This document shows, piece after piece, positions 24,497 to 63,104 of a stretch of DNA of 64,000 bases. Numbering within the stretch: the stretch's first letter is position 1; every line of letters begins with the position of its first letter. The notes under the pieces are model-generated. The model had not been told where the DNA came from. It saw only the letters and a program-made list of their open reading frames with translations, and did not search any database. Both the position numbers and the translations under genes were made by a program. This DNA is from Tannerellaceae bacterium. Its GTDB lineage: Bacteria > Bacteroidota > Bacteroidia > Bacteroidales > Tannerellaceae. The stretch is from contig JAISXD010000006.1 in assembly GCA_031270665.1 (NCBI GenBank), forward strand, positions 1 through 64,000. Reading direction: 5' to 3'.

Positions 24497-24706
24497 GACT
24501 TGTTATTATAAACGTTTACGCATTATTCTTAACTTGCTGGAATAACAAATGTATACAAATATGTTGCCAAAATGCAAAAAAACACTATCTTGCTGTTGTT
24601 TTACCGGTATAATGGAAGAGCGGCAGTTAACGGCGGCTTCTGACAAAAAGGAAGCGCAGGGGGACGTTTCATGAAGGTAGCATCAAGGAATAAATTTATC
24701 TGATAC

Positions 24707-24816
24707 GGAGAATCATCGGAGGATCGTCGGAGAATCATCGGAGAATCATCGGAGGAACATAGGAGGAACATCGGAGAAGCACTTGAGGATCGTCGGAGGA
24801 TCACTTGAGGATCATC
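24707..24816. repeat. 11-bp-period degenerate tandem array, 10 copies
   Basis: GGAGAATCATC GGAGGATCGTC GGAGAATCATC GGAGAATCATC GGAGGAACATA GGAGGAACATC GGAGAAGCACT TGAGGATCGTC GGAGGATCACT TGAGGATCATC. Confidence 0.9.
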
Positions 24817-37802: not shown

Positions 37803-38531
37803 ATGGCTGAAGAAAAGAACACTGTATTCGTGGAGCTTTACGATTTGAAGCTTTCAGACAGGGAAGACGACCGCATGGGCCGCGTAGTAACGGACAAATC
37901 GCTGACGGAAGACGACCTGATAAGGCTGGCCGTCAACCGGGGCACGGATATCAATCCCGAAACACTCCGCGCATCCATCAAAATCCTGAAGGAAATCGCC
38001 ATCCGCGAGATTGCCAACGGGGCGTCGGTACAGTTCGGGCTGGGCTATTTCGCCCTCGACGTAAAAGGCGTTTTCGTAGGAGACAATGCCAAGTGGAACC
38101 CCAAGGTTAACAGCCTGCACGCCAAGGTGACCGCCAGCGCCGAACTGCGCACGGCGATACAGAACGTACACGTAGAGGTGCTGGGCATGGCAAGTTCGGG
38201 CACGGTGATTAACAGCGTAACGGATGTGTCGTCCGGCGAAGTGAACACGCGCCTCACGCCCGGTGGCGGCGTAAACCTGGAAGGGACGAAAATCAAGATT
38301 GCAGGACAGGACGGGCGCAACGGACTGATGTTCCTGGATGCCAATAACATCGTATACGATGTGTACCCCAAGAGCATACTGGTGAACGACCCGAAAAAGA
38401 TATCCTTCATCGTGCCGGCCCTGCCCAAAGGCGAGTACCGCCTGAGGCTCACCACGCAGTATTCCACTTCGAGCACGTTGCTCAAGGAGCCGCGTACCGT
38501 AGAGTTCGGCTATCCGCTCACGGTGAAATAG
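37803..38531 (+). CDS. HU-like DNA-binding domain plus Ig-like (DUF4469/HU-HIG type) protein, paralog 1
   Basis: 242 aa; 'RVVTDKSLTEDDLIRLAVNRGTDINPETLRASIKILKEIAIREIANGASVQFGLGYFALDVKG' (HU-like) then 'NTRLTPGGGVNLEGTKIKIAG...SFIVPALPKGEYRLRLTTQYSTSSTLLKEPRT'. Confidence 0.85.
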   Translation: MAEEKNTVFVELYDLKLSDREDDRMGRVVTDKSLTEDDLIRLAVNRGTDINPETLRASIKILKEIAIREIANGASVQFGLGYFALDVKGVFVGDNAKWNPKVNSLHAKVTASAELRTAIQNVHVEVLGMASSGTVINSVTDVSSGEVNTRLTPGGGVNLEGTKIKIAGQDGRNGLMFLDANNIVYDVYPKSILVNDPKKISFIVPALPKGEYRLRLTTQYSTSSTLLKEPRTVEFGYPLTVK

Positions 38532-38623
38532 GCCCTGCCCCGTGGGCACGACGTGCCCTCGCCCGTGGGTACGACAAGCCCTCGCCCGTGGGCACGACAG
38601 GCCCTCGCCCGTGGGCACGACGC
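38532..38623. repeat. 4 x 23-bp tandem array beginning immediately after the HU-HIG paralog 1 stop codon
   Basis: GCCCTGCCCCGTGGGCACGACGT / GCCCTCGCCCGTGGGTACGACAA / GCCCTCGCCCGTGGGCACGACAG / GCCCTCGCCCGTGGGCACGACGC. Confidence 0.95.
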
Positions 38624-38713
38624 GCCCCTTCTCCCCCCTCCCGCACATCAGCGAAGAGGGGGGTAGTTTTATATCGGTTTTAATCCTATCTTTGTAGCTT
38701 TAATAATGTAAGT

Positions 38714-62234: not shown

Positions 62235-63053
62235 ATGCAGGAAGAGAAAAACACCGTGCTCGTAGAACTCTACGACTCAACGTTCCCGGAAAGGCCCGAC
62301 GACCGTTACGGGCGGATAGTAACCCCCAAGTCGCTGCGCATGGACGACTTGATAAACACCGCCGTCCGCCGGCGGACAGACCTCAATGCGGAAACCCTCC
62401 GCGCCGCCCTCGGCATACTGACGGAGATAGCGGTGAAAGAAATCGCAAACGGCGCCTCGGTAGAGTTCGGCCCGGGGTTCTTCAGCCTCGGCGTAAAGGG
62501 CCCCTTCACCGGCAGCCAACCCAAGTGGAACCCTGCCGTGAACGCCCTGCAGCTAAAGGCCATCCCCGGCGCCGGACTGCGCACCGCTATCGAAGGGATA
62601 CACGTAAACATCCGCGGGATGGCAGGCCCGCAAACCATCGTCAACAAGGTGACAGACGCCACTACGGGGCAGGAAAACAAACGTCTCACCCCGGGCGGCG
62701 GCGCCGAACTGGACGGCAGGCGAATCAAGATTGCAGGCGACAACCCGGCAAACGGCATCCGCCTGCACAGAGAGGACAGCCTGCACAGAGAGGACAGCCT
62801 GAACAATCAGGACGGCCAAGACAGCCAAGCGGTATACCCCATCGCGCCCGAAGCCATACTGCTCAACAGCCCGAAGAAGGTAACCTTCATCGTCCCTCCC
62901 TCCCTGCCCCCCGGCCATTACAAGCTGAGCCTCACCACGCAGTACACAAGTTCTCCTACGCTCCTCAAGGAGCCCCATACATACCTGCTCGACTACATCC
63001 TGGAGGTGGCGCCGTCATCTGCCCCACATAACGATGTTATCTGCCCCACATAA
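62235..63053 (+). CDS. HU-like DNA-binding domain plus Ig-like (DUF4469/HU-HIG type) protein, paralog 2
   Basis: MQEEKNTVLVELYDSTFPERPDDRYGRIVTPKSLRMDDLINTAVRRRTDLNAETLRAALGILTEIAVKEIANGASVEFGPGFFSLGVKG; collinear with paralog 1 throughout. Confidence 0.85.
   Translation: MQEEKNTVLVELYDSTFPERPDDRYGRIVTPKSLRMDDLINTAVRRRTDLNAETLRAALGILTEIAVKEIANGASVEFGPGFFSLGVKGPFTGSQPKWNPAVNALQLKAIPGAGLRTAIEGIHVNIRGMAGPQTIVNKVTDATTGQENKRLTPGGGAELDGRRIKIAGDNPANGIRLHREDSLHREDSLNNQDGQDSQAVYPIAPEAILLNSPKKVTFIVPPSLPPGHYKLSLTTQYTSSPTLLKEPHTYLLDYILEVAPSSAPHNDVICPT
62764..62817 (+). repeat. In-frame 18-bp intragenic repeat (2 exact plus 1 degenerate copy) in HU-HIG paralog 2
   Basis: CTGCACAGAGAGGACAGC x2 then CTGAACAATCAGGACGGC; encodes LHREDS-LHREDS-LNNQDG. 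Confidence 0.9.
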
Positions 63054-63104
63054 CGGCGTTATCTGCCCCACATAATGCCGTTATCTGCCCCACATAACGG
63101 CAGG
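63017..63104. repeat. 4 x 22-bp tandem array spanning the stop codon of HU-HIG paralog 2
   Basis: ATCTGCCCCACATAACGATGTT / ATCTGCCCCACATAACGGCGTT / ATCTGCCCCACATAATGCCGTT / ATCTGCCCCACATAACGGCAGG. Confidence 0.95.

Follow-up and report, generated by a model that had tools for sequence, protein, structure and literature searches.

Most genes of related Bacteroidales that encode an HU domain fused to an Ig-like DUF4469 domain (HU-DUF4469 genes) are followed, shortly past their stop codon, by a tandem array of ~23-bp units whose sequence is private to each gene. Closely similar pairs of these genes that differ in their arrays also differ in one loop of the DUF4469 domain. It is probable that every HU-DUF4469 gene constitutes, together with its adjacent array, one cognate protein-DNA module, in which the array would be read by the Ig loop and each protein would own a private address. 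The window, i.e. the whole 64,000-nucleotide stretch of DNA analyzed here, carries two of these genes (Table 1).

By sequence, the product of gene 1 is related to the solved structure 4fmr (E 1e-21). Its HU-DNA_bdg domain (PF14848, 95.6 bits) and its DUF4469 domain (PF14734, 92.5 bits) both score above their cut-offs and follow each other in that order. The original prediction had named the protein HU-HIG/DUF4469. The HU and DUF4469 parts of this identity hold; the HU-HIG part does not, as the Pfam HU-HIG model PF18291 gives 19.3 bits for gene 1 and 20.1 bits for gene 2 against a cut-off of 26.2 bits. Gene 1 is neighbored by an OEP efflux gene and a GT9 gene. As had been predicted, array 1 begins with zero gap after the TAG stop codon (38529-38531). 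Tandem Repeats Finder (TRF) describes it with a period of 23, 3.9 copies, 89% matches and a score of 138. The four units, GCCCTGCCCCGTGGGCACGAC-GT, GCCCTCGCCCGTGGGTACGAC-AA, GCCCTCGCCCGTGGGCACGAC-AG and GCCCTCGCCCGTGGGCACGAC-GC, depart from a near-invariant core by 2, 1, 0 and 0 changes and each ends in a different dinucleotide. These features agree with the earlier description, as does the inverted repeat at the first unit junction, which is exact. The 14-bp core, allowing up to two mismatches, has four matches in the window, all of them inside the array, for an expectation of 0.27, and the repetition is therefore not a matter of chance. Within the source genome (58% complete, 1.97 Mb), a search for the 21-mer that tolerated up to three mismatches hit only the four units of array 1. 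The loop of the hairpin that lies beyond the array exceeds the length limit of a consensus terminator scan; the stem is visible in the fold. The next gene is preceded by the box TATCTTTG, taken here for a Bacteroidetes-type promoter box; it is conserved at a relative locus devoid of HU gene (L130).

Table 1. Features of the two HU-DUF4469 genes and of one Parabacteroides distasonis array (window coordinates unless a locus is named)
Feature	Coordinates	Strand	Basis or remark
HU-DUF4469 gene 1 (242 aa)	37803..38531	+	ORF, Pfam, relation to solved structure 4fmr
HU-DNA_bdg domain PF14848 of gene 1 product	residues 12-128		Pfam
DUF4469 domain PF14734 of gene 1 product	residues 136-233		Pfam
DUF4469 Ig-fold domain of gene 1	38208..38501	+	Pfam
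FG-like loop codons of gene 1, QYSTSSTLLK, residues 219-228	38457..38486	+	proposed reading loop
Array 1, 4 units x 23 bp	38532..38621	+	TRF
Perfect inverted repeat GGGCACG-A-CGTGCCC, unit 1/2 junction of array 1	38544..38558	.	
Terminator-like hairpin CCCCCCTC...GAGGGGGG then TAGTTTT, 3' of array 1	38630..38669	+	fold; limits approximate
Promoter box TATCTTTG of next gene, boundary of the gene 1 unit	38687..38694	+	sequence
HU-DUF4469 gene 2, paralog (272 aa), stop inside array 2	62235..63053	+	
FG-like loop codons of gene 2, QYTSSPTLLK	62940..62969	+	alignment
Array 2, 4 units x 22 bp, core GTTATCTGCCCCACATAACG + variable dinucleotide, dyad GTTAT...ATAAC	63013..63099	+	
Array GGGGAGGCATCATCCCTAACGCT of P. 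distasonis HU-DUF4469 gene UNS60_RS22205 (WP_048927267.1)	L357 3234-3331		

The protein encoded by gene 2 is 57% identical to that of gene 1 (PF14848, 72.9 bits; PF14734, 83.1 bits). Array 2 is unrelated in sequence to array 1 and both are built of a core and a variable dinucleotide. The neighbors of gene 2 are PdxT and a topoisomerase-like gene, and its orthologue in genome G016 lies in the same PdxS-PdxT-gene-topoisomerase synteny with the arms GTTAT...ATAAC kept. One diverged solo copy of array 2 is present in the source genome between RNase HII and SusD genes (G000:C2:13001-13108). A third HU-DUF4469 gene of this genome, on contig C13, has no array in the 159 bp that precede the contig end. 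The AlphaFold model of both window paralogs is of too low confidence for use (pLDDT 37). An in-frame 18-bp tandem repeat (REDSLH..., window 62761-62817), missing from the G016 orthologue, makes the second variable loop in the DUF4469 domain of gene 2 larger. The window also contains 10 copies of an 11/33-bp tandem repeat, CGGAGGATCAT, at 24706-24816, outside called ORFs and unrelated to the HU-DUF4469 arrays.

The association between gene and array was evaluated by two approaches. In 20-kb loci of the window's own genus and of one other genus of its family, an array with a period of 19-25 bp was called by TRF at most 300 bp from the stop of 35/47 DUF4469 genes versus 18/681 control genes (p~4e-36), one item of this comparison being a duplicate view of gene 2. 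The autocorrelation of the 200 bp past the stop was computed for 131 genes of related Bacteroidales, the addition being mainly the genus of genome G128. It peaks only at lag 23 (0.446 versus 0.258) and lag 46. The lag-23/46 signal exceeds the control 99th percentile for 110 of the 131 HU-DUF4469 genes versus 7 of 626 control genes from the same loci, and other lag pairs do so for 1 to 7 of the 131. The peak at lag 23 is present even in the genes without a TRF call. The anticipated enrichment of tandem arrays at the 3' ends of these genes over control genes was thus recovered. Among 118 genes with both flanks available, the array lies downstream in 98 and only upstream in 8, and 12 have neither. 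Five of the eight upstream arrays belong to the 'MKYKL' clade, with 22-bp units (L041, L050, L051, L052, L053).

Downstream arrays were also encountered in other Bacteroidales families and in the Spirochaete MAGs L005 and L006. In P. distasonis TSDC17.2-1.1, all HU-DUF4469 genes (5/5) have an array. One gene of this strain (L361) recurs with its array in genome G320 (L322), which identifies G128 and G320 as members of Parabacteroides; the window would thus come from a relative within the same family, Tannerellaceae. The number of HU-DUF4469 copies per genome ranges from 0 to 43. Comparable arrays are present at only 2/20 of the PF18291-type HU genes of three genomes. Two PF18291-type HU genes (L337, L350) have repeats of ~22 bp past their stop, and the array habit may extend beyond DUF4469 genes. 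HU-DUF4469 relatives were noticed on two unverified fecal phage scaffolds, MT836435.1 (L362) and MT838150.1 (L363), where TRF finds no 23-bp array past the stop. The same two domains occur in Treponema denticola TDE_2259, which is merely named in an expression study (PMC12724145). No description of gene-adjacent private arrays was found in the open-licence literature, from which subscription papers may differ.

The arrays share an architecture and not a sequence. The periods of 117 TRF arrays are 23 (101 arrays), 24 (9) and 22 bp (7), with a median of 4 copies (range 2-17) and a median start 22 bp past the stop. The array of every gene has its own unit, made of a dyad of ~14-16 bp and a spacer, with a variable part of 2-9 bp. 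Palindromy goes beyond that of column shuffles in 40/57 arrays (p<=0.05). Compensated changes of the two arms number 18, versus 7.1 in unit shuffles (maximum 13 of 200), and the arm mismatches show no G-U excess (69 GT versus 56 AC, p 0.28). Compensated arms without G-U bias are better accounted for by duplex-DNA dyads than by RNA hairpins. Ahead of the genes the cognate unit is no commoner than expected: over 85 genes, the best match within 300 bp upstream averages 13.8, versus 13.7 by chance. The autoregulatory role suggested by the original prediction is thus not borne out in its promoter type, and the upstream operator was rejected, the exception being the clade whose array is upstream. 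A separate class of often palindromic 21-bp (and 41-42-bp) arrays exists in the same genus and is not tied to HU-DUF4469 genes (L046 14245; L050 4477, 4559; L051 237; L083 2055; L085 5148; L089 6757; L091 5411; L072 4927; L075 146; L076 9774). The neighbors of this class include FecR, CstA, TauE and OEP genes.

The protein region that changes together with the array was delineated by comparing 24 pairs of proteins whose Ig halves are 80% or more identical; the arrays differ in 18 of these pairs and are the same in 6. All 18 different-array pairs differ in the FG-like loop, which corresponds to residues 219-228 of gene 1. The mean number of loop differences is 3.4 in the 16 clearest switched pairs versus 0.8 in the 6 same-array pairs (MWU p 0.0006, for switched pairs that are few and partly non-independent). 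Ig differences outside the FG loop do not separate the two groups (p 0.23). Three of the 4 Ig differences of the pair L367/L368 and 4 of the 5 of the pair L370/L373 fall in the loop. The HU halves have 0 differences in L239/L381, whose arrays are different, and 1 difference in L114/L147, whose arrays are clearly different. The idea that the HU domain alone sets specificity was rejected, since identical HU halves occur with different arrays. At the DNA level, switched pairs are ~97-100% identical over most of the gene; identity falls at the loop, falls further in the array, and is back to 87-100% right past the array in three of them. The same-array pair L250/L251 has the reverse profile, the stretch from loop to array being the most conserved. 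Loop and array thus act as one block.

The arrays of L256/L321 differ with one conservative change in the FG loop, next to 5 Ig and 11 HU differences, and the FG loop may therefore not be the sole determinant of the array. The palindrome GCAGCCGAGCGGCTGC is common to homologues of two species in which the loop SNGxTLL is kept. Overall protein similarity was rejected as a predictor of array similarity, the two being essentially uncorrelated at the family level, since the palindromes of near-identical proteins may be unrelated and specificity changes faster than the protein. A diversity-generating retroelement was likewise discarded as the source of the loop changes, those of L114/L147 not being adenine-specific. 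The latter loci are two ~1.06-kb contigs of one assembly (G128 contigs C29 and C30), near-identical at both ends and different in loop and array, and could be two repeat copies or two alleles of one locus, i.e. population switching.

Arrays also occur apart from the genes. Several array families of G001 each have multiple same-unit arrays elsewhere in the genome, in intergenic position and without orientation preference; they rarely lie beside a gene remnant, two degenerate remnants having been seen. Solo copies were found for 3/4 array families in G021 and are few in G326, where most arrays have few or none in trans. In P. distasonis, a solo array lies at NZ_OY725771.1:6597. Composite arrays, in which solo arrays of different families stand side by side, were observed at L201, L203, L204, L205 and L208. 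As to the suggestion that the array marks the genome, genome-wide marking by array 1 was rejected, since it occupies a single site in its 58% complete genome; other members do have dispersed solo arrays. At the site of G012 orthologous to that of gene 1, gene and array are both absent between flanking genes 72-89% identical. No HU match was found beside the GT9 gene in G016, G017, G010 and G007, the upstream sequence available being limited to 600 bp in one of them. The HU-less G012 site (L130 4184-4395) contains a GC-rich array with a period of ~41-42 bp between the OEP and GT9 genes. The joint absence of gene and array, together with their association and with loop-array co-switching, strongly supports the original proposal that they form a functional unit.

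We propose that the HU-DUF4469 protein, probably as an HU-mediated dimer, binds the dyad site in each 23-bp unit, that its HU domain dimerizes and bends DNA, and that the dyad is read by the C-terminal Ig-fold domain, DUF4469, through its FG-like loop. That the array is the protein's own binding site, as originally suggested, is the best inference that can be made from sequence, and the gene 1 loop is a candidate reader by transfer from the close homologue pairs. A length of 23 bp represents about two DNA helical turns. With the loop reading each phased site, a filled array would form a phased and bent nucleoprotein complex. With its codons among the final ~120 bp of the coding sequence and the array close behind the stop, the loop makes one short block with its target. 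This block may be exchanged or co-evolve jointly, each paralog thereby gaining a private address. The complex would assemble at the 3' end of its own gene and, in some genomes, also at the dispersed solo arrays. As to its physiological role, our first guess is insulated local chromatin structuring or silencing, each paralog acting at its own locus and solo arrays. Expanded bacteroidetal HU-Ig proteins have reportedly been proposed to recognize invading DNA (work of Burroughs, Aravind and colleagues on the HU superfamily in 2017), in which, to our knowledge, private arrays were not described. By analogy, the bound array may take part in conflict with mobile DNA. More tentatively, it is conceivable that the Bacteroidales possess a sizeable and rapidly diversifying repertoire of orthogonal Ig-loop DNA readers, comparable to antibody loops and each with a heritable address array, loop and array being exchanged as a cassette in the service of genome identity, chromosome architecture or mobile-DNA conflict.

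Other explanations of the arrays can be weighed against this module. Array 1 is probably transcribed since it sits between the stop and the terminator-like hairpin, and the fold of its region is slightly more stable than that of shuffled sequence (z -2.1). Both observations would suit an array acting as RNA, with 3' UTR hairpins that protect, terminate or autoregulate the mRNA and are perhaps bound by the HU protein. This reading is rather improbable given the lack of G-U bias in the arms, the strict 23-bp period that RNA hairpins do not need, the solo arrays in all gene orientations, the clade with an upstream array and the absence of any Rfam match. The genomes could also simply be rich in repeats, among which HU-DUF4469 genes would be found by chance or common bias, and 21-, 22- and 42-bp arrays do lie beside other genes of the same genus. 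At the level of the association this is already refuted by the same-locus controls (7/626 at lag 22-24), the lack of 21/42-bp excess at HU-DUF4469 genes, the scarcity of arrays at PF18291-type HU genes (2/20) and the span of the association over families and phyla; we give it practically no credence.

The array could instead be mainly a recombination device. Gene plus array would then be a cassette able to move or to be exchanged, with the repeats serving as its ends, as landing sites or as tracts of conversion, and the solo arrays would be its remnants. The joint absence in G012 and the missing HU matches beside GT9 in the four other genomes, the variable copy number, the solo arrays with two degenerate gene remnants and the block-wise switch of loop and array are all compatible with such a device. 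However, neither recombinase nor transposase accompanies the window units, recombination ends would be shared whereas here each copy has a different sequence of its own, and the synteny of gene 2 is kept. A recombination device would also leave the 23-bp phasing, the dyad symmetry and the match to the reading loop unexplained, and we hold it to be unlikely. The cognate module read by an Ig loop is the explanation that we favor.

Under the cognate module, DUF4469 would be assigned a candidate function, that of reading DNA in a sequence-specific manner. The succession of a gene, its stop and a private 23-bp dyad array, which recurs across the order, connects hundreds of uncharacterized HU-like genes with their likely targets from sequence alone. 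Natural near-identical pairs differing mainly in loop and array make a recognition code, as well as the purpose of the repertoire, testable in the cultured gut commensal P. distasonis, and private protein-array pairs are a possible source of many orthogonal DNA-binding parts.

The system resembles several known ones and departs from each. HU-HIG proteins also join an HU domain to an Ig-like domain in many divergent copies; unlike HU-DUF4469, PF18291 members are without arrays in 18/20 tested cases. In iteron-Rep and ParR-parC systems, a protein binds phased repeats that lie next to its own gene; the arrays share this phased placement, and binding is predicted here. They usually occur as one system per replicon, whereas up to 43 genes per genome are found here with private, mostly downstream arrays, and no initiator or ParM/ParA partner is present among the neighbors of gene 1 and gene 2. 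REP/RAYT elements likewise associate a single protein family with short palindromic repeats between genes (PMC3733652). REPs bear GTAG/CGTC tags and go with a transposase, whereas the array families described here differ from gene to gene; no transposase was seen beside the window units and no GTAG/CGTC common tag among the listed arrays. Type III toxin-antitoxin systems (ToxIN) also possess gene-adjacent tandem repeats specific to their partner protein. ToxI repeats are ~36-nt RNA located upstream of an RNase, in contrast with DNA dyads of ~23 bp, mostly downstream of an HU/Ig protein gene. With a unit of 23 bp, a variable part of 2-9 bp and no cas ORFs seen alongside, the arrays are not CRISPRs, and PADLOC defense models match neither the gene 1 nor the gene 2 protein. 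The eukaryotic Ig-fold DNA readers Rel/NFAT, p53, Runx and STAT share with our proposal, purely by analogy, the idea of an Ig-like loop reading DNA. Overall, the component families are known, and their pairing with private arrays fits none of the iteron/parC, REP/RAYT, CRISPR, ToxIN or PADLOC kinds.
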